64,000 nucleotides of DNA from Ruminococcus sp. Lineage in GTDB: Bacteria; Bacillota; Clostridia; Oscillospirales; Acutalibacteraceae. The notes below the pieces were generated by a model. That model searched no databases, was not told the origin of the DNA, and saw only the letters and a list, made by a program, of their open reading frames with translations. The stretch is taken from positions 1 through 64,000 of the forward strand of contig JAFRDE010000014.1 in the NCBI GenBank assembly GCA_017403985.1, given 5' to 3'. The stretch's first letter is position 1, and each line of letters starts with the position of its first letter. The position numbers were made by a program, and so were the translations under genes. Shown here in pieces: positions 21,798 through 49,984 of the stretch.

Positions 21798-23679
21798 CCT
21801 TTGTCCCGCCTTTCTGTTTGACCAGATAGATCATCAGCACGTTGACGTCGGCGGGCGACACGCCGCTGATACGGCTCGCCTGACCGATATTCAGGGGTCG
21901 GATATTGCTGAGCTTTTCCTGCGCCTCTAAGCGCAATCCGGTGATACTCCGGTAATCGATATCCTCGGGAAGGCATTTATTTTCGAGCTTACGCATATTC
22001 TCTACCGCGGCAAGTTGTTTTTTGATATAGCCCTCGTACTTGATTGCAATCTCGACCTGTTCAAAGATCGCGGGATCGAGATCGGGACGCGTCGTATCGA
22101 TCGGTTTCAGTACTTCATAGTTAAGCTCGGGTCGCTTCAACAGTTCAATCAGACGAATACCCGTTTTTACGTCAGATGTTTCACGTGAAACAAGTATCTC
22201 AGACAATAGGGGAGAAGGGGAGACGACTGTCGCCGCGACGCGTTTCTTTTCCTCTTTGATCAGCTCCTGCTTTTTCAGATATCGCTGCCAGCGCTCTTCG
22301 CTGATCAGCCCTAAGTCATAGCCGATAGGGGTGAGGCGCTCGTCGGCGTTATCCTGCCGCAGGATCAAACGGTACTCGCTGCGACTGGTCATCATGCGAT
22401 AAGGCTCGTTCGCGCCCTTGGTGACCAGATCGTCGATCAGGGTGCCGATATAAGATGAGGCACGGTCGAGAATCAGGGGATCCTTGCCTTGGATCTTTAA
22501 AGCGGCGTTCACGCCCGCGACAAACCCCTGCGCCGCGGCTTCCTCATATCCCGAGGAGCCGTTGAACTGTCCCGCGCCGTACAATCCGGGAAATTTTTTG
22601 AATTCCAGAGTCGCCAGCATATCGGTCGGATCGATACAGTCGTATTCGATCGCGTAGGCGGGACGCATGATCATCGCGTTCTCCAGTCCCGGAATCGTAT
22701 GATAAAAGGCAATCTGAACTTCTTCGGGCAGGGAAGAGCTCATACCCTGCAGATACATTTCCTCCGTATCCTCGCCGCAGGGTTCAATAAAGAGCTGATG
22801 ACGCTTTTTGTCCGCAAAGCGCACGATCTTATCCTCGAGGCTCGGACAGTAGCGCGGACCGACGCCTTCGATCTTGCCGCCGTACAGCGGAGATCGGTGG
22901 ATATTATCGAGAATGATCTTTTTGGTATTCTCATTCGTCCAACTGACATGACACAAGACTTTGTTCTCTGGAGGCGTCAGGGTGTCATAGGAAAAGGGGA
23001 CGGTTGGTTCATCGCCGCGCTGCTCCTCCAAATCGGTGAAATCAATGGAAGAACGCTTCACGCGGGCGGGAGTACCGGTCTTGAAGCGTCTGGTTTTCAC
23101 GCCGAGCTTCCTCAGGCTCTCGCCCAGGAACGCGGCAGGGAAGGTGCCGTCGGGTCCGCTTTCGTAGCTGACTTCGCCGACATAAATGCGTCCTCCGAGA
23201 TAGGTACCGGTCGCGATGACGACCGCTTTCGCTTTGAATACGCCGAGCATACGGGTGGTCAAAAGCCAATTGCCGTTATCATCCTGTTCGATATCGGTGA
23301 TCTCCGCCTGACGCAGATCGAGATTCTCCTGTAATTCCAGCTTATGCTTCATCACCGCGGAATACCTGCGGCGATCGATCTGCGCGCGCAGGGAATGGAC
23401 GGCGGGTCCTTTGCCGCGGTTGAGCATGCGGCTCTGGAGCGTACATTCGTCCGCCGTTTTACCCATCTCGCCGCCGAGCGCGTCGATCTCGCGTACCAGG
23501 TGTCCCTTCGCCGTACCGCCGATCGACGGGTTGCAGGGGCAGTTGCCGACCGCGTCCATATTGATCGTGAATACCGCTGTTTGACAGCCGAGACGCGCAG
23601 CGGCTAAAGCCGCTTCGATCCCCGCGTGTCCCGCGCCGATCACGGCAACGTCATATTCACCCGCAAAATAGGTTGACAT
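21790..23679 (-). CDS. mnmG: tRNA uridine-34 5-carboxymethylaminomethyl modification enzyme MnmG
   Basis: FAD-dependent partner of MnmE; together they install cmnm5U at the wobble position of several tRNAs. The 629-residue length is usual. The FAD-binding start is YDVAVIGAGHAGIEAALAAARLG, and CNPSIGGTAKGHLVREIDALGG and the HSLRAQIDRRRY segment are family hallmarks; CHVSWTNENTKKII carries the conserved Cys. The C-terminus has the helical MnmE/tRNA-binding domain (IGQASRISGVSPADVNVLMIYL). GGAGGAAATT precedes the ATG. parS site 2 lies inside the coding region. Confidence 0.97.
   Translation of the reverse strand: MSTYFAGEYDVAVIGAGHAGIEAALAAARLGCQTAVFTINMDAVGNCPCNPSIGGTAKGHLVREIDALGGEMGKTADECTLQSRMLNRGKGPAVHSLRAQIDRRRYSAVMKHKLELQENLDLRQAEITDIEQDDNGNWLLTTRMLGVFKAKAVVIATGTYLGGRIYVGEVSYESGPDGTFPAAFLGESLRKLGVKTRRFKTGTPARVKRSSIDFTDLEEQRGDEPTVPFSYDTLTPPENKVLCHVSWTNENTKKIILDNIHRSPLYGGKIEGVGPRYCPSLEDKIVRFADKKRHQLFIEPCGEDTEEMYLQGMSSSLPEEVQIAFYHTIPGLENAMIMRPAYAIEYDCIDPTDMLATLEFKKFPGLYGAGQFNGSSGYEEAAAQGFVAGVNAALKIQGKDPLILDRASSYIGTLIDDLVTKGANEPYRMMTSRSEYRLILRQDNADERLTPIGYDLGLISEERWQRYLKKQELIKEEKKRVAATVVSPSPLLSEILVSRETSDVKTGIRLIELLKRPELNYEVLKPIDTTRPDLDPAIFEQVEIAIKYEGYIKKQLAAVENMRKLENKCLPEDIDYRSITGLRLEAQEKLSNIRPLNIGQASRISGVSPADVNVLMIYLVKQKGGTKDE
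22177..22192. promoter_or_regulatory. parS: parS site 2 (inside mnmG)
   Basis: TGTTTCACGTGAAACA, a perfect palindrome embedded in mnmG; the coding strand reads it as part of the LVSRETSD segment. Confidence 0.95.
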
Positions 23680-23756
23680 AATTTCCTCCGGAAATAAAGA
23701 ATAATTGTAGACGGGCTTTGCTCATACCCAATGAATTAGAGATAACAGAAACGTAC

Positions 23757-23805
23757 TGTCTCTGTTTGTGGGATTGCCACGGTCGTAAACTCCCTCGCAA
23801 TGACA
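23757..23805. repeat. Interspersed palindromic repeat R6
   Basis: TTTGTGGGATTGCCACGG and CTCGCAATGACA; inverted orientation relative to R1. It lies left of parS site 3. Confidence 0.7.
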
Positions 23806-23815
23806 GCGAGATAAA

Positions 23816-23831
23816 TGTTTCACGTGAAACA
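23816..23831. promoter_or_regulatory. parS: parS site 3
   Basis: TGTTTCACGTGAAACA, perfect, in the mnmG-mnmE gap, bracketed by R6 and R7. Confidence 0.95.
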
Positions 23832-23843
23832 TTTTTATCAGTT

Positions 23844-23876
23844 GAGATTGCCACGGGTTAAACCCTCGTAATGACA
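23844..23876. repeat. Interspersed palindromic repeat R7 (short)
   Basis: GAGATTGCCACGGG and CCCTCGTAATGACA; a short R copy right of parS site 3. Confidence 0.6.
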
Positions 23877-23884
23877 AATAAAAA

Positions 23885-25255
23885 CTACTTGCCGACGCAG
23901 AATTGATGGAAGACTTTATCGATCACCTCGTCCGTGACGCGCTCGCCGGTCAGCTCACAGATATATCCGACCGCTTCTTCGATCAATACCGTTACCGCGT
24001 CGAGCGTTAAACCAATATGTAGTGCTTCTATCGCTTCGCTGACACAATTTACAGCTTTCATCGTCAAAGTGCGCTGGCGTTCATTATACAATAAGGCGTT
24101 AGCGCTGTTGATATCCCCGACGGAGCAGACGCGCTTGATCGCCTGAACCAGCTCATCCGCGGAAGTAGCATACTTAGCCGACATTTTCACAACTTCATCG
24201 AAGTGTTCTTTGATCAGCGCTTCATCGGCCTGCTGAGTCAGGTCGCTTTTATTCAGGATCGCGACAGAAGAAACTTCATTTGCCAGCCTGATGATATCAA
24301 GATCGTCGTCAGTCAACGGGGAAGAGGCGTCAAAAACACATAGCAGGAGCGCCGCGCTGTTGACGCGCGATCTCGCTTTATCGACGCCGATGCTTTCGAT
24401 CTCGTCGCCCGTTTCATGGATTCCGGCGGTGTCGCTGAGATTCAGAACGATGTCGCCGAGGCTGACGCTCTCTTCTACAATATCTCTGGTCGTGCCCGCC
24501 ACAGACGTGACGATACTTTTATCAAAGCCCGCGAGCAGATTCATCAAGGTGCTTTTGCCGACGTTCGGCTTGCCCGCGATAACCGTATCGATACCGTCCT
24601 TTAAGATGCGTCCGTTATCATAGTTTTGAAGGATATCTTTCAGCTGCGCTTCGACGCTTTTCAGCGAATCACTCAGCGCGTCGTTTTCAACGACAGGGAT
24701 ATCCTCTTCGGGATAATCCGCCCAAGCGTTCAGATGCGCCGCTAAATTCAGCAACTCATCCTTTAAACTGTTGATCCTTCGCGAGAGTGCGCCTTCTTTT
24801 ACATTCAGAGCGGCTCTGGCGCTTTCTTTGGAGCGGGAGGATATGATGTCCATGACGGATTCCGCTTCGATCAGGTCGAGCTTTCCGTTCAGAAAAGCGC
24901 GCTTGGTGAACTCGCCCGCCTGAGCCGCAACGACGCCTGCGTCATAGACGGCGCGCAGCACGCGCGCGGTGATGTATACGCCGCCGTGACAGGATAATTC
25001 GACGACGTCCTCGCCGGTATAGCTGTGAGGCGCGCGGAAAACGGTCGCGATACATTCATCGATCGCTTCTCCGTTTTCATGCGCCGTGCCGAGGGCGCAG
25101 GTGTAGCCTTTCATTTCGGACAGCTTTTTTCCTGATTTTGTTCGGAATACTTTTTCCGCGATCTGTATCGCTTCGCCGCCCGAGATGCGGATGACGGAGA
25201 TACCCGCGCTCGCCTGCGCGGTAGAAATAGCAGCGATAGTTGTATCGATATTCAT
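23885..25255 (-). CDS. mnmE: tRNA modification GTPase MnmE
   Basis: GTPase partner of MnmG in wobble-uridine modification. The 456 residues begin with the formyl-THF-binding domain (DTIAAISTAQASAGISVIRI), followed by a helical domain interrupted by the G domain with G1 GKPNVGKST, the GTTRDIVEE switch and NKSD. It ends in the family's C-terminal FCVGK with the conserved Cys. AAGGA lies 9 bases before the ATG. A terminator separates it from jag upstream, so it probably has its own promoter. Confidence 0.97.
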   Translation of the reverse strand: MNIDTTIAAISTAQASAGISVIRISGGEAIQIAEKVFRTKSGKKLSEMKGYTCALGTAHENGEAIDECIATVFRAPHSYTGEDVVELSCHGGVYITARVLRAVYDAGVVAAQAGEFTKRAFLNGKLDLIEAESVMDIISSRSKESARAALNVKEGALSRRINSLKDELLNLAAHLNAWADYPEEDIPVVENDALSDSLKSVEAQLKDILQNYDNGRILKDGIDTVIAGKPNVGKSTLMNLLAGFDKSIVTSVAGTTRDIVEESVSLGDIVLNLSDTAGIHETGDEIESIGVDKARSRVNSAALLLCVFDASSPLTDDDLDIIRLANEVSSVAILNKSDLTQQADEALIKEHFDEVVKMSAKYATSADELVQAIKRVCSVGDINSANALLYNERQRTLTMKAVNCVSEAIEALHIGLTLDAVTVLIEEAVGYICELTGERVTDEVIDKVFHQFCVGK

Positions 25256-25272
25256 GGTTTCAAGTCCTTATC

Positions 25273-25300
25273 AGTGACCGGTGGCAAGCTACCGGTTTTT
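25273..25300. repeat. Heptanucleotide array H5
   Basis: AGTGACC, GGTGGCA, AGCTACC, GGTTTTT: degenerate period-7 units, just upstream of mnmE. Confidence 0.65.
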
Positions 25301-25327
25301 AAGAGAATCATAACCCAATCAGGTTAT

Positions 25328-25356
25328 AAAAAGGCGGGCGGAATAATCCGCCCGCA
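25328..25356 (-). terminator. Terminator after jag
   Basis: On the minus strand GCGGGCGGA, TTATT loop, TCCGCCCGC, then CTTTTT. Confidence 0.85.
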
Positions 25357-25362
25357 TCATAA

Positions 25363-26151
25363 TTACTTATCGATTCTGCCGTAAAGACCGTGTTCGCCGC
25401 CTTCGTTCAGGGGCTTGCGGTCGGGATTGGGAGCGGGAGCGGACGTCTTGGGCTTGGAGCCTCTTCTGCTGTAGTTACTGCGTCTTCCGCCTCTGCCGCC
25501 TCTGTTATAATCCTTGCTCTTGCCGTCGGGACCGATTACGACATGGCGGTTCATGTTTTCGCCTTCGCTCCATGAGGTAGCGCCGTTGACCTTCTGCACC
25601 GCAGTATGGATGATGCGGCGCTCATAGGGATTCATCGGCTCCAAAGAGCTCTTTCTGCCGGTCTTAGCGGCTTTGATCGCCAGTCTTCTGCCGAGAGATT
25701 CCAGCGTCTTTTCACGCTTCTCGCGATAGTCGCCGGTGTTGATGACGACTCTCTTATAGGAGCTGTCGACGCGATTTGCCGCGAGGCAGGCAAGATACTG
25801 CAGCGCGTCGAGGGTCTCGCCGCGTCTGCCGATGATGAAGCCGACGTCTTCGCCTTCGATATCGATGGTGATGATGTTGTCTTCATCCTTAGTGGTTACG
25901 GTGATATCATTCAGATCCATGCTCTTGATGATCTTCTTGATGAATTCCTCCGCAGTCTGCGCGGCGTTCTGCTTAAGAGTTACTTTAACCTTGGCAGGTC
26001 TGCCGCCGAAAAGACCGAGGACCTTTTTGCTTTGCATTTCGATGATCTCGAATTCGATACGATCATCAAATGTTTCTACGCCGAGTTCTTTACAGGCTGC
26101 TTCCTTCGCTAATTCAACGGTAGCGCCGACGGCGATTGCTTCCTTTAACAA
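25363..26151 (-). CDS. jag: RNA-binding protein Jag (KhpB/EloR)
   Basis: RNA-binding regulator linked to cell elongation and to YidC. The 262 residues hold a Jag-N domain (about 1-52, EAIAVGATVELAKEAACKEL), a KH domain with the GRRG loop (FIIGRRGETLDALQYL) and an R3H domain (NPYERRIIHTAVQKV, WSEGENMNRHVV). The C-terminal tail of about 45 residues is unusually Arg/Gly-rich (RGGRGGRRSNYSRRGS), an RGG-like RNA-binding tail. The start codon is TTG at 26151-26149 after AAGAAGGTG. Its place directly after yidC is the usual one. Confidence 0.94.
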   Translation of the reverse strand: MLKEAIAVGATVELAKEAACKELGVETFDDRIEFEIIEMQSKKVLGLFGGRPAKVKVTLKQNAAQTAEEFIKKIIKSMDLNDITVTTKDEDNIITIDIEGEDVGFIIGRRGETLDALQYLACLAANRVDSSYKRVVINTGDYREKREKTLESLGRRLAIKAAKTGRKSSLEPMNPYERRIIHTAVQKVNGATSWSEGENMNRHVVIGPDGKSKDYNRGGRGGRRSNYSRRGSKPKTSAPAPNPDRKPLNEGGEHGLYGRIDK

Positions 26152-26171
26152 GTTGACACCTTCTTTGTCTT

Positions 26172-26206
26172 AGTGACCAGTGACCAGTGGCAAGTGACCA
26201 GTGATC
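26172..26206. repeat. Heptanucleotide array H6
   Basis: Five units: AGTGACC, AGTGACC, AGTGGCA, AGTGACC, AGTGATC, between jag and yidC. Confidence 0.85.
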
Positions 26207-26225
26207 AAAGGATATTTAATAAACG

Positions 26226-27206
26226 TTATTTTTTCTTTTTTGCGTTGTTTTTCGAACTGCTTGGCTGTGGTGATGATACCGGTTGATAGTCATACGGTAC
26301 CTTCGCTTCCTTTAGCTCCAGAAGCGCGACATGTTCCGCTTCAGCCCGGGCGGTCATATGTGCCGCCGAATAGAATTTGTTGATCAGTAATGTCTGGACG
26401 AATCCGAAGATCGTGGACCAGATCCAGTAGAAGCCGACAGCGCCGGGTACGATATAGGAGATATATACCGTGATCAGCGGTAAGAGGAGCATCATATACT
26501 TCATGCATCCCTGCTGACTCTGCATGGGGTTGCCCTGCATTCTCATCGTCAGAAGCTGTGAACCTAAAGAAGTCACAAGACAGAGGATCGGGATGATGAT
26601 GATAGCGGAGGTAAAACCGGTCTCTTTCGGGATAGAGAGAAGATCAAGACCTAAGAAGTTGAAACCGCCGGCAAGATTGTGGATCGCGTGGATCTCCTTC
26701 GCCGGTAAGCCCTGGTTGATCAGGATATTGACGTTGTCGGGATTGGTGAAGAGATGCAGCGCGTTCATTTCGGAATAGATGCTGTTCTGTGTCACATAGA
26801 CGCCGGGGATCATGTTGATCTGGTTGATCGCCTCAGCGGACAGATGGATCACGTTGGACAGAGGTCTTACGACCGCGTAGTAGATACCCAGCATGATGAA
26901 CATCGGGAAAATAGAGGTAGCGCATCCCGACATAGGGGAGACGCCTTCTCTGTCGTAGAGCTTCTGGATCTCTTCATTTTGTTTTGCCTTATTGTTGGCA
27001 TACTTTTCTCTGATTTCCTTCTGCTTCGCCTGTAAAGAAGCGTTGGCAGCCATTGATCTTTGCTGCTTGATAGAGGAAGGAAACAGGATCGCCCTGAAGA
27101 TCAGGGTGAAGACGATGATAGCGACGCCGAAATTCTGGAACACCCAGAAGATCGCCCATAACACGTAGCCGAAAATGCTACCGATAAAATTGAAAACTGT
27201 AAACAT
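26226..27206 (-). CDS. yidC: Membrane protein insertase YidC (SpoIIIJ/OxaA type)
   Basis: Inserts and folds membrane proteins, alone or with SecYEG. The 326-residue protein has the Gram-positive five-segment layout without the large periplasmic domain. The functionally key Arg sits in LIFRAILFPSSIKQQ in the first conserved membrane segment, followed by a charged cytoplasmic hairpin (QAKQKEIREKYANNKAKQNE). The C-terminus is Lys-rich (NNAKKKK). No signal-peptidase II lipobox is obvious at the N-terminus, unlike many Gram-positive YidC proteins. AGAAAGG precedes the ATG. Confidence 0.95.
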   Translation of the reverse strand: MFTVFNFIGSIFGYVLWAIFWVFQNFGVAIIVFTLIFRAILFPSSIKQQRSMAANASLQAKQKEIREKYANNKAKQNEEIQKLYDREGVSPMSGCATSIFPMFIMLGIYYAVVRPLSNVIHLSAEAINQINMIPGVYVTQNSIYSEMNALHLFTNPDNVNILINQGLPAKEIHAIHNLAGGFNFLGLDLLSIPKETGFTSAIIIIPILCLVTSLGSQLLTMRMQGNPMQSQQGCMKYMMLLLPLITVYISYIVPGAVGFYWIWSTIFGFVQTLLINKFYSAAHMTARAEAEHVALLELKEAKVPYDYQPVSSPQPSSSKNNAKKKK

Positions 27207-27237
27207 ACGTAAAAGCCTTTCTTAGCTTATAAGATTC

Positions 27238-27468
27238 TCATTGAAGTTTATGCTTTTTTTCGGGAACGGGGTCGTAACCGCCCCTTGACCACGGGTTACA
27301 CCTGAGAATCCTCCATAATCCCATCGCCGAGCCTTTCAGCGCGCCGAAGCGCTCGATCGCTTCATAGGTGTACTGCGAACAGGTGGGATAATACTTACAC
27401 TTCGGTTTGGTGTGTGGTGATATAGCAGTCTGATAAAACCGGATGAGTTTCAAAAACAGTTTTTTCAT
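27238..27468 (-). CDS. yidD: Membrane insertion efficiency factor YidD
   Basis: A 76-residue protein of the YidD/haemolysin family, thought to help YidC-dependent insertion. The conserved core [20 protein letters not shown] and [13 protein letters not shown] with its Cys residues is complete. The N-terminal helix is amphipathic. No clear ribosome site is visible before the ATG. It lies between rnpA and yidC as usual. Confidence 0.93.
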
Positions 27469-27534
27469 GTTATTAAAATAATCTGAGAGTTCCGCGAAAA
27501 TATGAAATAGCTTTCGCTCTCACAATAACCGTTC

Positions 27535-27867
27535 TTATTCGATAATACCTATCTTCTTTAAATGTTCTCTCATATATTTTTCCACTTCATAGCTCTTGCA
27601 GTACGCCGTACGGGTACGTGCTACGAAAATCAGATCGAAAGGTGCGTTCTGATCAGCGTTCAGATGAGAGAAAGCCGCCCTGATCACTCTGCGGCTGCGA
27701 TTGCGGCAGACTGCTTTGCCGACCTTTTTTGAGGTGGTGATACCTATCCTAAGGTTATGATTTTTTGTTTTGATCGCATAGGTAACAAGAGCGGGGGAAA
27801 CAAAGGATTTTCCCTTACGGTAAAGACGCTGGAAATCTCTGTTGCTCTTGATCGTAGTAATCTTCAT
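27535..27867 (-). CDS. rnpA: Ribonuclease P protein component
   Basis: The protein subunit of RNase P, which matures tRNA 5' ends with the RnpB RNA. The 110 residues show the LRIGITTSKKVGKAVCRNRS RNA-binding segment and the IFVARTRTA strand. The start ATG has GGTGG close upstream. It follows rpmH after a partial terminator, the standard arrangement that keeps rnpA expression below rpmH. Confidence 0.95.
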   Translation of the reverse strand: MKITTIKSNRDFQRLYRKGKSFVSPALVTYAIKTKNHNLRIGITTSKKVGKAVCRNRSRRVIRAAFSHLNADQNAPFDLIFVARTRTAYCKSYEVEKYMREHLKKIGIIE

Positions 27868-27952
27868 TTAACCACCGATGATGTCGAAAAACATCGTTTT
27901 TTGTCCCAAACGGGACCGTAAATCACAGAAATGATAATATCCTATAAATGAA

Positions 27953-27980
27953 AAGAAAGACCACTGCCTCTCAGTGGCCT
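27953..27980 (-). terminator. Hairpin terminator between rpmH and rnpA
   Basis: GGCCACTG, AGAGG loop, CAGTGGTC, then TTTCTTTT on the minus strand, 14 bases after the rpmH stop; likely partial read-through to rnpA. Confidence 0.8.
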
Positions 27981-27993
27981 TTACATCGTCAGA

Positions 27994-28128
27994 TCAATAG
28001 GATAACTGCTTTCTGCCCTTCGCTCTTCTTCTGGCAAGAACTTTGCGGCCGTTACTGGTAGACATTCTCTTTCTGAAGCCGTGCTCTTTTTTACGATGGA
28101 TCTTCTTAGGCTGATATGTTCTGAGCAT
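27994..28128 (-). CDS. rpmH: 50S ribosomal protein L34
   Basis: A 44-residue basic ribosomal protein. The reading [20 protein letters not shown] and then [20 protein letters not shown] matches the L34 family from end to end. AAAGGAGGAG lies 6-7 bases before the ATG. It marks the left side of the origin, divergent from dnaA, with a consensus promoter upstream. Confidence 0.98.
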
Positions 28129-28168
28129 TGTTACTCCTCCTTTCGGGTGCATAACCTTACAAGATAGC

Positions 28169-28197
28169 ATTATAACTTAGTTTTTCTTATTAGTCAA
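28169..28197 (-). promoter_or_regulatory. Promoter of rpmH
   Basis: On the minus strand TTGACT (28197-28192), 17-base spacer, TATAAT (28174-28169). The leader contains TTATGCACC (28154-28146), 8 of 9 bases of a DnaA box. Confidence 0.85.
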
Positions 28198-28381
28198 TAT
28201 CCAATTTACCTTATTTACTATGTTTTTTGAACCCTTTTTTAGAGAAAAAATTGCAGACCACAATATATAGTATATGAGAAAAATACAGACACAATCGATA
28301 AAAAAAGCATACTGTCATAATGCACATTTTTATAGATATATATAATACTTATATATATGTAATTTTTTTCAACAATATCGG

Positions 28382-28410
28382 TTGCTTTTATGTGGAAAAT
28401 TTGATATAAT
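28382..28410 (+). promoter_or_regulatory. Promoter of dnaA with a DnaA-box-like site in the spacer
   Basis: TTGCTT (28382-28387), 17-base spacer, TATAAT (28405-28410). TGTGGAAAA in the spacer is a one-mismatch DnaA box in reverse, which would fit autorepression. Confidence 0.75.
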
Positions 28411-28517
28411 ATTTGTGATTATGGGTCGGTGTAAATCCGATCGGTTTTCTGTTATTTCAACGATTAAAATATACCCTTGAAACAAGGGTTGTCATATGAT
28501 GATCAGAGGGGAAAAAT

Positions 28518-29846
28518 ATGGAAAATTTCAATGAAGGCTGGAGCATCATCTGCAACTACCTCAAAGAGGAGAAAAAAATCGCCGATGTTGCCTATAAAAC
28601 ATGGATATCAAGGATCGAGCCGATCGGCATCGATTTTGAAAAGGGCGTTATCGTCCTGATGGTACCGAACGAATTTCACCGCCAGACGCTGATACGCGGT
28701 TACCTTCCGAAATTCGAGGACGCCTATGAGGCGGTGCTGGGTACAACGTTCGAAACGATATTCCTGATCCCGGAGGAAAATGAAAAACAGAAAGAGAAGC
28801 TGCTGGGTGAGGAGACCTCCGCCGATACCGGCTATGTATTCACATTCGATACCTTTATCGTAGGATCCTCCAATAAATTTGCTCACGCCGCTTCCTTAGC
28901 GGTCGCACAGAATCCCGCCTCCGCTTATAATCCGCTGTTTCTTTACGGCAACTCGGGACTGGGCAAAACGCATTTGCTTTACGCAATCGGCAACGAGATC
29001 CGCAAAACGCATCCCGACTATAAGGTAATCTATATCAAGGGCGAGGATTTTGCGAACGAGATCATCCAGTCAATCATGAACAAAACGACGGCGCAGTTCA
29101 GACAAAAGTACCGTCAGACGGACGTTCTGCTCGTCGACGACGTCCAGTTCATCGGAGGCAAGGAAAGTACGCAGGAGGAATTCTTCCATACCTTCGACGC
29201 CTTATACGACGCGAAGAAACAGATCGTTCTGACGTCCGATCGTCCGCCGAAGGAGATCAAGGTGCTGACGGAGCGACTCAGAAGCCGTTTTGAAATGGGT
29301 CTGCTCGCCGATATCCAGGCGCCGGACTTTGAAACCAGAGTCGCGATCATCAAACGAAAGGCGGAAATCATCGGTCTCGACCTTGACGACGATCTGTGCG
29401 AATATATCGCCAACAAGCTCAAGACCAATATCCGACAGCTCGAGGGCGTCGTCAAAAAGCTGATGGCGAGATACAACCTGACGAAAGAAAAACCCAATCT
29501 TTCTATTGTCAACGAGTCGATCTCCGAGATACTGAACGACGATACGCCGCCGGAGCTGACGGTGGAAAAAATCATCGACGAGGTGTGCCGCACCTTCGGC
29601 GTTGACAGCGACGATCTGCGGTCGCAGAAATCCCGCCGCGCCAATATCAACAAACCCAGACAGATCGCTATCTATATCGTCCGCGAGCTGACGACGCTAT
29701 CGATGGAGGCGATCGGTAAGGAATTCGGCAACCGTCATTATTCCACCATCGTCTATACCGTCCAGCAGGTGGAAAAGGAGATCAAAAAAGATCCCGCCCT
29801 CAGAGATACGGTAGAGGATATCATCAAGAATATCAGGGAACGGTAA
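28518..29846 (+). CDS. dnaA: Chromosomal replication initiator DnaA
   Basis: Binds DnaA boxes and opens the origin with ATP. The 442 residues have domain I (about 1-80), a short linker, the AAA+ domain with Walker A GNSGLGKT (144-151) and Walker B LLVDDVQFI, and the C-terminal DNA-binding domain with the signature GNRHYSTIVYTVQQVEKEI. AGAGGGG precedes ATG 28518. No terminator follows; the 419-base gap to dnaN holds an R repeat, a small open frame and a trio tract. Confidence 0.98.
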   Translation: MENFNEGWSIICNYLKEEKKIADVAYKTWISRIEPIGIDFEKGVIVLMVPNEFHRQTLIRGYLPKFEDAYEAVLGTTFETIFLIPEENEKQKEKLLGEETSADTGYVFTFDTFIVGSSNKFAHAASLAVAQNPASAYNPLFLYGNSGLGKTHLLYAIGNEIRKTHPDYKVIYIKGEDFANEIIQSIMNKTTAQFRQKYRQTDVLLVDDVQFIGGKESTQEEFFHTFDALYDAKKQIVLTSDRPPKEIKVLTERLRSRFEMGLLADIQAPDFETRVAIIKRKAEIIGLDLDDDLCEYIANKLKTNIRQLEGVVKKLMARYNLTKEKPNLSIVNESISEILNDDTPPELTVEKIIDEVCRTFGVDSDDLRSQKSRRANINKPRQIAIYIVRELTTLSMEAIGKEFGNRHYSTIVYTVQQVEKEIKKDPALRDTVEDIIKNIRER

Positions 29847-29943
29847 AGTTGTAACGCGCCACTGATTTTTAAAATAAATACATGTTAACGCTGATAATAT
29901 ATACATTATCACTCATACCATTTGATGTAAAAGAAATGTACTG

Positions 29944-29992
29944 CTTCTCTTTGTGGGATTGCCACGGCTCCTGACAGAGCCTCGCAATGACA
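29944..29992. repeat. Interspersed palindromic repeat R8
   Basis: CTCTTTGTGGGATTGCCACG and CCTCGCAATGACA arms; inverted orientation, inside the dnaA-dnaN interval. Confidence 0.7.
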
Positions 29993-30114
29993 TTATTATC
30001 ATATACTTATCATCATATCCATCAACATTCACTCCACATCTCTTAACAGCATGTTAAAAGTTTTATTAATCAGAGAAAAAGAATCACGATTCTCCTTAAT
30101 GCTTGGAGAGAAGT

Positions 30115-30192
30115 ATGGATAAAAAAGACAGCAAGAATGCGGGATGGAAGAGATTTCCTCATTTTAACGTTACCTACTACTATTACTATTAA
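30115..30192 (+). CDS. Possible 25-residue small protein ending in five tyrosines
   Basis: ATG 30115 has GGAGAG 6-7 bases upstream and opens a frame reading MDKKDSKNAGWKRFPHFN then VTYYYYY and TAA. The penta-Tyr end is encoded by exactly the triplet run that looks like the DnaA-trio. Either the frame is incidental or the unwinding element doubles as coding sequence. I recognise no family. Confidence 0.25.
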   Translation: MDKKDSKNAGWKRFPHFNVTYYYYY

Positions 30193-30265
30193 TTATTACA
30201 TAACATTTCATAACATAAGAAAATAAAAATAATAACGGAACTTCCGGTGAAAGAGGTAATTCAAT

Positions 30266-31363
30266 ATGAAATTTCAATGCATGAGAACAGATTTATCCAA
30301 CGCTGTATCCAACGTATCGCGCGCGGTCGCGACGAAAGCGACGACTCCCGCTTTAGAGGGCGTACTGATCAAAGCCTACGGCAGTCAGTTGGAAATTTGC
30401 GGTTATGATCTCGAGATCGGTATCGTCACCAAGGTCGATGCGTCGATCACGGAGGAAGGAGAGATCGTTGTATCCGCAAGATTATTCAACGAGATCATCA
30501 GAAAATTACCGGAGGAGATCGTCAGCATCGAGACCGACGACAGGATGATCACTTATATCCATTCCGGCGCGGCGGATTATCAGATCGTCGGCATCAGCTC
30601 GACCGAGTATCCGGAGTTGCCGAACGTGGAAGAAATCAGCGGTCTGACCGTGAATGCGGAGATCCTGAAGAATATGATTCGTCAGACGGTGTTCGCGACC
30701 TCGGATAATATGGCGAAGCCGATCTATACCGGTTCTCTGTTTGAGATCAAAGACGGTCTGTTCAAGATCGAAGCGGTCGACGGCTTCCGCATGGCGATCC
30801 GTGAGGAAAATGTTGACAGCGATATCGAAGCAAAATTTGTCGTACCCGGCAAAACACAGAATGAGATTTTGAAGCTGATCACCGATAATAAGAAAGACGT
30901 CGATATTATCGTCGGTCAGAGACATATTATATTTAAGATCGAAGAATACAGCATCATTTCCCGCTTGCTGGAGGGTAACTTCCTCGATTATAAGATGCCC
31001 TCGTCCGCTTCGACCGAGTTCGTTGTCAACACCCGCATCCTTGCTTCCGCGGTAGAGAGAATGGCGCTCCTGACCAATGAGAAGATCCAATCGCCGGTGC
31101 GCTGCTCCATCAGCGCAGATGAGATCAAGCTGTCCTGCTCGACGACAGTCGGCAGAGCGAACGATATGATCTCGGTATCTGTGGTCGGCAACGATATGGA
31201 GATCGGCTTCAATAACCGTTTTCTGCTTGACGCGCTGAAATATGCCGATACAGACGAGGTAAGGGTGATGCTCAACGGCAGCCTGCAGCCGATGATCATC
31301 CGACCGGTCGAGGGACAGAGCTTCACGTTCCTTGTCGTTCCGATGCGTCTGGCGGCGGAGTAA
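30266..31363 (+). CDS. dnaN: DNA polymerase III beta subunit (sliding clamp)
   Basis: Ring-shaped processivity clamp. The 365 residues fit three clamp domains of about 120 each, starting MKFQCMRTDLSNAVSNVSRA. The C-terminal hydrophobic pocket region ends in the family's FLVVPMRL. GAAAGAGG precedes the ATG. It is the first gene of the plus-strand right arm and is followed by a 235-base repeat-filled gap before rlbA. Confidence 0.98.
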   Translation: MKFQCMRTDLSNAVSNVSRAVATKATTPALEGVLIKAYGSQLEICGYDLEIGIVTKVDASITEEGEIVVSARLFNEIIRKLPEEIVSIETDDRMITYIHSGAADYQIVGISSTEYPELPNVEEISGLTVNAEILKNMIRQTVFATSDNMAKPIYTGSLFEIKDGLFKIEAVDGFRMAIREENVDSDIEAKFVVPGKTQNEILKLITDNKKDVDIIVGQRHIIFKIEEYSIISRLLEGNFLDYKMPSSASTEFVVNTRILASAVERMALLTNEKIQSPVRCSISADEIKLSCSTTVGRANDMISVSVVGNDMEIGFNNRFLLDALKYADTDEVRVMLNGSLQPMIIRPVEGQSFTFLVVPMRLAAE

Positions 31364-47633: not shown

Positions 47634-48926
47634 TTGAAAAAAAAGTTCAAAAAACTGTTGGTGATCATTACGAAAAGAAATCGGTTGGAGCTGATTTTTT
47701 ACTTTATCATCGTTGTTATTCTGCTTTTCTATTTCGGATTTGAGAAAATCATCGATATCACGACTTTTTCTACCGTAGTGATCGTCACAACGCTCAGCTT
47801 TTTGATCGGTAAGATCGGAAACCGGCTGTATAATAGAGTTGAAGATACCGTAAAGCTCACTGATGATTATGACGGTCTGGTCAAGCGCTATTCCGCCGAA
47901 ACGATGATCACACATCAAAACGGAGATACAAACGAAGCCGTTGTTTTTCCCGTGATAAAAACAGCCGATCTATATGATAAGACCGTAACGATCTGCGATG
48001 ATCCCGAGCATGAATACCAACTGCCGCAGCTTGTCGTCGCCTGTTTTGCGGAACTGATCGACGCCCATAAAACCTCGGAGATATATAATAACCCGAATAT
48101 CCGTGTCGACAAATGGTTTTCACAAGGAAATAATTTTGCGATCCAAACCGGCAGAACGACATATTTCAATTCGATGGTTACCAACAGAGCGATGGATTAT
48201 GCGATCCGAAAAAACCTGACGATCCGGGAACTGTTTGAATGCGGACCGTTTTTATGCCTGCCGGAACAATCCAAATTATCCAATCATCTCGGCTTTAACG
48301 GTTTTGTTGAATCCTCGGACGGATATATCGTTTTTATCGTCAGAGGCAGAAACGTATCGATAGCAAAAAACACGATCGGTACAAGCGTCGGAGCCAGCCT
48401 GAAAGTCAAATATGCTCTTGATGATAACAGAAAGCTTTCGGAAAAAGGGTTATATAACAGCATGGTCAGGGAGATTTACGACGAATTATCGATTGCGGCT
48501 GAAGATTGCATCAATGTATACGAAGATAAAAAGGTCAACATCATTTCAGCTTACAGAGATCTGGTGGAGGGCGGCAAACCGCAATTGCTGTTCTATGCAA
48601 AAACAAAAACGCCAAAAAAAGAGATCGAAAAGCATTTCTTTGAGATCAAGATCCGGAACAGCAAATATTTGAAGGATAAAAACAGCAGTATGCCGTTAGA
48701 TTTTGAAGCATACAAATTAAAATCGCCGCAGGAACAAAAAATGCTGTATGACGGAGATCGGATGATCTGGTTTTCGAAGGACGATTTACTGAGCGATCAA
48801 ACGGAGATCTATCCGGATAAAATGATAGTAAACGACAAAAAGTATGATATGGTTCCATCGGCGTCCGCCAGCGTTGTGATGCTGATCGATTGGTTGAAAA
48901 AAGAACAGTATGATAAAGGTAATTGA
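47634..48926 (+). CDS. Membrane-anchored Nudix-like protein of unknown function
   Basis: A 430-residue protein. Two hydrophobic segments are near the N-terminus (about 19-36 and 45-62), then a large cytoplasmic region. TSVGASLKVKYAL and MVREIYDELSI (R279-E280, E284) match the second half of a Nudix box (REUxEExGU), but the upstream Gly and Glu are off register, so the box is degenerate and hydrolysis is uncertain. The start is TTG 47634 with AGGAG 9 bases upstream. Base composition differs from its neighbours: sampled lines gave about 30-48% GC against 62% in a gyrA line. It overlaps the next gene by 17 bases. The pair breaks up the mre/PBP2-min-mgsA order. Function unknown. Confidence 0.7.
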   Translation: MKKKFKKLLVIITKRNRLELIFYFIIVVILLFYFGFEKIIDITTFSTVVIVTTLSFLIGKIGNRLYNRVEDTVKLTDDYDGLVKRYSAETMITHQNGDTNEAVVFPVIKTADLYDKTVTICDDPEHEYQLPQLVVACFAELIDAHKTSEIYNNPNIRVDKWFSQGNNFAIQTGRTTYFNSMVTNRAMDYAIRKNLTIRELFECGPFLCLPEQSKLSNHLGFNGFVESSDGYIVFIVRGRNVSIAKNTIGTSVGASLKVKYALDDNRKLSEKGLYNSMVREIYDELSIAAEDCINVYEDKKVNIISAYRDLVEGGKPQLLFYAKTKTPKKEIEKHFFEIKIRNSKYLKDKNSSMPLDFEAYKLKSPQEQKMLYDGDRMIWFSKDDLLSDQTEIYPDKMIVNDKKYDMVPSASASVVMLIDWLKKEQYDKGN

Positions 48927-49722
48927 ACAGTACCTGTGCTCAAAGACAGGAGACGACAGCAAAAACGAAGACTTGATATTTGTCAGTGATGATTTTTGTG
49001 TGTTGTTGGACGGCACGACTTCAAAAACAAAAGCATTGTTTCACGGAAAGACTGCCGGTCAGCTGACGATAAAGATCATCGAGGAGCTTTTTCGAAGCCG
49101 TCGAATCACACCCGAAACCGACCCGCAGGAAGCGGTTGAACTGATCCAAAAGGAGTTGAAAGACTTTTCGCGGGCGAACGATCTGGAAAGCAAAGAGATC
49201 TGCCTTTGCGCGTCCGGATTGATCTATCATGCGGCAAAACGCCGGATATGGTCCGTCGGGGATTGTCAGTTTTTGGTAAACGGCGTTTTGTACAGCAAGC
49301 CGAAACGGATCGACGCGCTGCTGGGAGAGATTCGATCCGTCATGATAAGATGCCTGCTTCACAGCGGGTACAGTGAAGCCGATCTGCTTCATGAGGATCG
49401 GGCGCGCGGTATGATCATCGATCTCCTGAAAAAGCAGCGCTTTCTTGAAAACACGGACGATCCGTATGGATATGCCGTTTTCTCATGCCGAGGCGGCGTG
49501 CCCGAGGTCAGTATAACCGACGTTTCGTGCGGCGATGAGATCGTATTCGCTTCCGACGGATATCCTGAACTGTGCCGCTCGTTGGCGGAAAGCGAAGCAA
49601 AGCTGAAGGAGCTGACAGAAAAGGATCCGCTGATGTATCGGTATACGCATATGACCAAAGGCGTAACGGACGGAAATGTCAGCTATGACGACAGGAGTTA
49701 TATCCGATTTATCGCAGGATAA
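48910..49722 (+). CDS. PP2C-like protein phosphatase partner of the Nudix-like gene
   Basis: A 270-residue cytoplasmic protein with the PP2C metal-site pattern in order: Glu20-Asp21, Asp34-Gly35 in VLLDGTT, Gly117-Asp118 in WSVGDCQF, Asp216-Gly217 in FASDGYPEL and Asp260-Asp261 in SYDDRSY. This suggests a metal-dependent phosphatase, possibly active. The ATG lies inside the 3' end of the Nudix-like gene (17-base overlap) with only a weak ribosome site, so translation is probably coupled. A strong terminator follows. No kinase is adjacent; the substrate may be the partner protein or a nucleotide-responsive target (inference). Confidence 0.75.
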   Translation: MIKVIEQYLCSKTGDDSKNEDLIFVSDDFCVLLDGTTSKTKALFHGKTAGQLTIKIIEELFRSRRITPETDPQEAVELIQKELKDFSRANDLESKEICLCASGLIYHAAKRRIWSVGDCQFLVNGVLYSKPKRIDALLGEIRSVMIRCLLHSGYSEADLLHEDRARGMIIDLLKKQRFLENTDDPYGYAVFSCRGGVPEVSITDVSCGDEIVFASDGYPELCRSLAESEAKLKELTEKDPLMYRYTHMTKGVTDGNVSYDDRSYIRFIAG

Positions 49723-49841
49723 AGATCGAACTGAAAAAAGCAGTATTTGCCAAATTAAAAACTGTGCAAGTGCAAAAGAAAAATCGGTCGGATCCGAATG
49801 GATTTATTGAATATAACCAATTTTCAGATTCATAATTCTAC

Positions 49842-49874
49842 AAAAAGAGCAGCCGTCAACGGTTGCTCTTTTTT
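49842..49874 (+). terminator. Terminator after the Nudix/PP2C cassette
   Basis: AAGAGCAGCCG, TCAA loop, CGGTTGCTCTT and T-run. The 49723-49841 stretch before it is AT-rich with no gene visible. Confidence 0.85.
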
Positions 49875-49910
49875 GATGTTTGTGATAGAATATTAACAGG
49901 TATAGCTTTA

Positions 49911-49945
49911 ATTAGTGGCAAGTTGCCGGTGATTAGTGGTTAGTT
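49911..49945. repeat. Heptanucleotide array H13
   Basis: TTAGTGG, CAAGTTG, CCGGTGA, TTAGTGG, TTAGTTA, upstream of minD. Confidence 0.75.
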
Positions 49946-49984
49946 ATTATCGCCGAAGAAAGGTGTTTGTTTTTACATAAACAA

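Follow-up and report, generated by a model that had tools for sequence, protein, structure and literature searches.

A two-gene insertion coding for a membrane-anchored Nudix-type protein and a PP2C-type protein at the PBP2-minD locus of Ruminococcus sp.

Gene structure of the locus

The DNA analysed here, called the window, is a stretch of 64,000 nucleotides of Ruminococcus sp. (assembly GCA_017403985.1, contig JAFRDE010000014.1). Two genes, which we name P1 and P2, are located between the genes for PBP2 and minD, and both are real genes. Reading of the open reading frames (ORFs) confirmed the two frames, the TTG start of P1, the short overlap between the genes and their place between PBP2 and minD, all of which had been described in the original prediction. 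The sequence AGGAG stands nine bases 5' of the TTG start. The positions of the genes and of the neighbouring features are listed in Table 1.

Table 1. Features of the P1-P2 locus, with the interrupted P1-type genes of other loci
Feature	Position	Strand	Description
P1	47634-48926	+	430 aa; based on ORF with ribosome-binding site, hydropathy, and relatives and profiles
P1 conserved core, Nudix-type region	48141-48623	+	about residues 170-330; invariant alignment columns
P1 core motifs, in order			TTYFNSMVTNRAMDY ... SNHLGFNGF ... REIYDELSI ... YRDLVEGGKPQ
P2, PP2C-type	48910-49722	+	270 aa; motifs NED, DGTTSKT, GDC, SDGYP, DDRSY
P1-P2 overlap (3' end of P1, 5' end of P2)	48910-48926	+	17 bases; 14 bases in the Acetoanaerobium counterpart
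Ancestral minD leader, outside the cassette	49757-49966	+	homology with cassette-free relatives restarts here
Promoter-like TTGAAT-18-CATAAT and terminator-like hairpin (49842-49873)	within the minD leader	+	
Interrupted P1-type genes	L006 9542-10762; L050 6758-8167; L054 8889-10222		

GC content was compared among 39 mechanically picked window ORFs of at least 200 amino acids, some of which are probably no genes. P1 had the lowest value of all (0.412), 4.5 standard deviations below the mean of the other 37 ORFs (0.548, sd 0.030), and P2 (0.500) was 1.6 standard deviations below it. The pair had been predicted to be AT-rich as a whole; this is true for P1, but P2 taken alone is only mildly AT-rich. 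The GC skew turns from negative to positive over positions 22000-31000 of the window, as at a replication origin.

Insertion between the PBP2 and minD genes

We searched minD in 100 genomes of the genus and took the best 30 loci, which included the own locus and left 29 others. PBP2 was found upstream of minD on the same piece in 27 of these 29, at a distance of 140-680 bases between alignment ends; one of the other two begins too near minD (L017), and the second shows no PBP2 (L027). None of the 29 loci had a match with P1 or P2 at E <= 1e-4, which speaks for acquisition. In the closest cassette-free locus (L013), PBP2 was 97% and minD 92% identical to the window genes, and the homology restarted about 35 bases past the P2 stop, while on the other side the cassette begins 65 bases past the PBP2 stop. 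Judged from these alignments, the pair is an insertion at the PBP2-minD locus, which supports the predicted acquisition of a cassette of a Nudix-type protein with two membrane segments and a PP2C-type protein. Because it follows the PBP2 stop so closely, the cassette is probably transcribed on the transcript of the PBP2 operon. A phage origin of the pair was considered and rejected, with no relative in five scans of viral contigs, and with bacterial-looking genes in the two phage-filed records that contain pieces of P2 type.

The terminator which the original prediction gave to the pair was not borne out. The hairpin downstream of P2 and the conserved flanks on both sides of it are common to the five cassette-free relatives that were aligned, so they belong to the minD leader of the host, and a terminator belonging to the cassette was rejected. 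Since the hairpin is ancestral, the cassette uses the host terminator. Within positions 49804-49907, the promoter-like sequence stands directly 5' of the hairpin and a second conserved stretch, AGAATATTAACAGGTATAGCT, comes after it. In an alignment with five other species this block upstream of minD was strongly conserved; it has the look of an attenuator or of a very short transcript. The locus gave no match with Rfam.

Membrane segments and Nudix-type domain of P1

The predicted two-segment membrane anchor agreed with the hydropathy of P1, which showed two peaks (19-residue means 2.58 and 1.85), one beginning at residue 18 and the other at residue 40, after a lysine-rich N-terminus. A degenerate Nudix-type domain is C-terminal to the membrane segments, which cover about residues 18-36 and 40-58.

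P1 had no match with Pfam, NCBIfam, PADLOC or PDB sequences at E <= 1, and the PDB sequence searches gave no useful lead. The relation to Nudix proteins is indirect. The profile of the P1 family (A1) matched a protein of genome G423 (L055; E 5e-5; hhalign 87%) that is above the cut-off of PF00293 NUDIX (23.3 bits vs 21.1), and on this account P1 is tentatively assigned to the Nudix type.

The intact Nudix box is GX5EX7REUXEEXGU. In P1 the Nudix-like helix is REIYDELSI, and the box around it is not intact: REIYDE is kept with one change of E to D, and the GX5E part is unrecognisable. Among the distant relatives, G666, Monoglobus (both RELWEE) and G372 (REFREE) keep an intact REUXEE part, and the helix of G423 is RGVYEE. 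Within the group of eight members defined below, we read REIYDE in the window, NEINDE in Acetoanaerobium, EEMNDE in 'Arthrobacter', ESINRE in E. eligens, KNLSDR in G028 and KTLLDN in G611. By this comparison the Nudix helix is eroded within the group, and the window copy is among the best preserved. The model of P1 folded alone had a pLDDT of 35, which is too low for a trustworthy structure.

PP2C-type features of P2

Relatives of P2 were found in Acetoanaerobium, a Bacteroidales bacterium, Miltoncostaea and Streptomyces (a copy with a stop), and as pieces in two phage-filed records. Residues E20, D21, D34, G35, G117, D118, S215, D216, G217, D260 and D261 were invariant in four aligned sequences (A2, P2 included). 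The motifs ED, DG, GD, SDG and DD, which we take to be those of the PP2C metal site, are complete as predicted, and the metal-site aspartates are present in P2. P2 shares the conserved acidic metal-site motifs with PP2C Ser/Thr phosphatases (PF13672), and it has DGTTSKT in place of the usual PP2C DGxGG.

The PP2C identity of P2 is read indirectly, through its relatives. P2 itself gave no PP2C match in Pfam (E <= 1) or NCBIfam; the relative L007 matched a PP2C profile below the cut-off (E 0.015), and the distant relative L058 matched PF13672 (PP2C_2) above it (E 1.7e-8), with an hhalign value of 95.6% against A2. The structure model of P2 had a pLDDT of 45, and its Foldseek results (best E 0.11) were a mixture of proteasome and PP2C chains. 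A weak PADLOC match of P2 with PDC-M21C (E 0.012) was discarded, as it is absent from the three aligned relatives. A2 was searched in 59 of the other genomes of the genus, and the matches in G029 and G055, which were short, and in G413 and G109, where the ORFs read were not PP2C, were dropped as probably spurious.

The two phage-filed records (L071, MT838773.1; L072, MT838269.1) were deposited as bacteriophage clones and hold bacterial-looking genes (GDPD, MFS transporter and RibF, read from ORFs) beside the PP2C pieces.

Distribution and phylogeny of the P1 family

P1 relatives were identified in Acetoanaerobium noterae, on an 'Arthrobacter' plasmid, in Lachnospira eligens (E. eligens in this text), in Monoglobus and in the genomes G028, G372, G423, G520, G572, G611 and G666, of which G520 has the closest one (52% identical). 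The A1 profile matched 3 of 161 genomes of the genus, 6 of 391 of the class and 3 of 398 of the phylum, with the own genome counted each time; two of the six class matches (G765, G555) were short, covered the N-terminal part only and were taken as probably spurious. On these counts the P1 family appears to be rare and sparse.

In a tree of 11 rows, the window copy grouped with G520 (100/99), Acetoanaerobium with 'Arthrobacter' (96/98) and G611 with G572 (100/99), and the deeper forks were weak or had long branches, in particular that of G423. From the motifs in common and the closest forks we define a group of eight (window, G520, Acetoanaerobium, 'Arthrobacter', E. eligens, G028, G611 and G572), for which the tree gives no firm proof of a single clade. 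Three P1-type genes are interrupted, those of E. eligens and G372 by a split into two ORFs and that of G572 by one internal TGA, as expected under fluctuating selection.

Two database labels were noted. The organism label of the record L004 (NZ_MN657152.1), Arthrobacter, may be an error: its P1 and that of Acetoanaerobium have an identity of 46.5%. L005 (NZ_CP154629.1) is listed as a plasmid of 2.63 Mb and looks like a chromosome.

Proposed function of the gene pair

We propose, with a probability of about 0.35, that P1 and P2 are a mobile membrane-bound ligand sensor or effector and the enzyme partner that sets its activity, with a role in defence or stress. P1 would be held in the membrane by its two-helix hairpin, with the soluble part predicted to be cytoplasmic. 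The worn Nudix-type domain would most likely bind a nucleotide or nucleotide-derived ligand without fast turnover, and the binding might change the oligomeric state or conformation of the hairpin, so that P1 would act as a membrane effector or give a signal. P2 may be produced from the same transcript by coupled translation and, as an active PP2C, may set the state of P1 or of a partner. It would remove phosphate added by a Ser/Thr kinase of the host, which the three Pkinase places found elsewhere in the own genome (G000) could supply. The defence or stress role is the least supported step of this proposal.

If it is true, the pair would represent a non-CBASS family of membrane Nudix proteins that is tied to reversible phosphorylation, and it would suggest that TM-Nudix proteins make up a broader class, of membrane effectors that are gated by a ligand and can exchange their regulators. 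Having only two genes, the pair is a compact test case, and the Acetoanaerobium pair is its distant natural replicate.

Partner genes of P1

The pairing of P1 with PP2C is loose, and the partners vary by lineage. The order P1 then PP2C was present in two of the eight group members, the window and the distant Acetoanaerobium noterae. In two others (G611, G572) a PfkB sugar kinase and a 2-hydroxyacid dehydrogenase are located 3' of P1; the best NCBIfam matches of the kinase include KDG kinases, below cut-off, and the stretch that matches PfkB in G572 is open. G028 has a Gfo/Idh/MocA oxidoreductase upstream of P1 with a 4-base overlap. The split P1 of E. eligens is followed by a 407-aa protein and a DUF4325 STAS-like protein; the former had no Pfam match above cut-off, and from the look of its motifs we take it to be a putative GHKL ATPase. 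The remaining two, the 'Arthrobacter' plasmid copy and that of G520, stand alone with open frames, and no PP2C was found within the 18 kb read near P1 of G520. As these two copies exist without a PP2C, it is not required by the P1 family. Outside the group, tblastn (E <= 1e-3) detected no P2 relative in the fetched loci of G666, Monoglobus, G372 and G423.

For the original prediction this outcome is mixed. The pairing recurs in Acetoanaerobium with a short overlap, and the 29 other minD loci are free of the pair, but PP2C adjoins P1 in only 2/8 and is absent at the closest relative. The statement that no known family has this pairing agreed with our family and paper searches, which found none; among the matches listed from the open-licence literature, no title or abstract opening described a Nudix-PP2C pair.

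It is conceivable, and we say so only tentatively, that there is an undescribed family of small mobile modules in which P1 is the component that stays the same, a membrane-anchored, catalytically worn Nudix sensor-effector that has its partner enzyme swapped by lineage. The swapped partner (PP2C; PfkB with 2-hydroxyacid dehydrogenase; Gfo/Idh; putative ATPase with STAS-like protein) would then make, remove or gate the signal.

The sugar enzymes next to P1 in G611, G572 and G028 also fit a close rival with a role in envelope or sugar metabolism. P1 would there be a Nudix protein held in the membrane that senses nucleotide sugars or sugar-phosphate derivatives or weakly hydrolyses them, the partner enzymes would belong to such pathways, and PP2C would be one regulator of several. 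Polysaccharide genes are present near the copies of E. eligens (annotated), G520 and G423 (both read from ORFs), and the window copy adjoins cell-shape genes. Because of these polysaccharide and sugar-enzyme neighbours, the metabolic role stays almost as likely as the sensor-effector role. However, polysaccharide loci are also insertion hot spots, so that adjacency to them says little; members that have such partners show a worn Nudix box (KTLLDN in G611, KNLSDR in G028), and no sugar enzyme adjoins the pair in the window or in Acetoanaerobium.

We consider it unlikely that the two genes are ordinary cargo, that is, a PP2C for host kinases and an unrelated membrane Nudix-type protein which were imported together and have no joint function. 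P2 relatives do occur without P1, as no P1-type gene was present in the fetched loci of Bacteroidales, Miltoncostaea and Streptomyces; a tblastn search of all fetched loci with 11 P1-type proteins or pieces (E <= 1e-3) detected none in L003, L007, L008, L071 and L072. The closest P1 relative lacks the PP2C beside it. But the genes of the Acetoanaerobium pair stand in the same order, with a comparably short overlap, at an identity of 32% for P1 and 37% for P2 with the window copies (BLAST), which is improbable for unrelated cargo.

Defence signals and comparison with known systems

With regard to the defence part of the sensor-effector proposal, recognised defence genes were seen, among the neighbours scanned, at a distance of up to about 3 kb from two of the eight group members; the 'Arthrobacter' plasmid has a type IIG restriction enzyme there, and E. 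eligens has an AbiD-type gene. The P1 relative of G611 (L051 9035-10636) had a weak PADLOC match with AbiEi (E 8e-5, residues 137-280), which was seen in no other P1-type protein scanned. PADLOC gave no match at E <= 0.1 for the proteins of G666, G423, G372 (Nudix half), Monoglobus, Acetoanaerobium, 'Arthrobacter' and G028.

Membership of the pair in CBASS was rejected. Neither SMODS nor Sa_NUDIX had a match in the own genome, the cassette contains no CD-NTase gene, and A1 against the Sa_NUDIX protein gave an hhalign value of 0.1%. Sa_NUDIX was detected in one of 196 class genomes (G238), at a CBASS-like locus (L057) where the Sa_NUDIX protein lies beside an ORF that looks like a cyclase.

The CBASS effector Cap16 (TM-NUDIX) has membrane segments and a Nudix domain as P1 has, and it is reported to be still toxic when the Nudix domain is mutated (PMC10419184). 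P1 differs in having a PP2C as partner; for the sequence comparison the Sa_NUDIX protein of the CBASS-like locus was used. The reported persisting toxicity of Cap16, together with the weak AbiEi match, the interrupted P1 copies and the tight coupling of a small membrane hairpin protein to a partner, would suit a P1 that is a membrane-acting toxin restrained by its partner enzyme, PP2C included, in a toxin-antitoxin-like manner, but we regard this as unlikely, as two of the eight members have no partner and keep their frames open, and the partners are mutually unrelated and vary in order (upstream in G028).

Two further comparisons concern PP2C as the partner in the proposed sensor-effector. 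Associations of PP2C, kinase and vWA are reported for GAP1-N2 conflict systems (PMC7159879), so that a PP2C is likewise found inside a predicted conflict system, whereas the P1-P2 cassette is without a kinase, vWA or GTPase gene. In G464, G333 and G308 the gene of a membrane protein also directly precedes that of a PP2C and overlaps it by one base, but there the membrane protein is a TPR and not a Nudix protein, its membrane segments are C-terminal (by eye), and the PP2C is only distantly related to P2. These loci (L058, L059 and L060, respectively), in which a 341-aa TPR protein precedes the PP2C, are a second case of coupling between a membrane protein and a PP2C.
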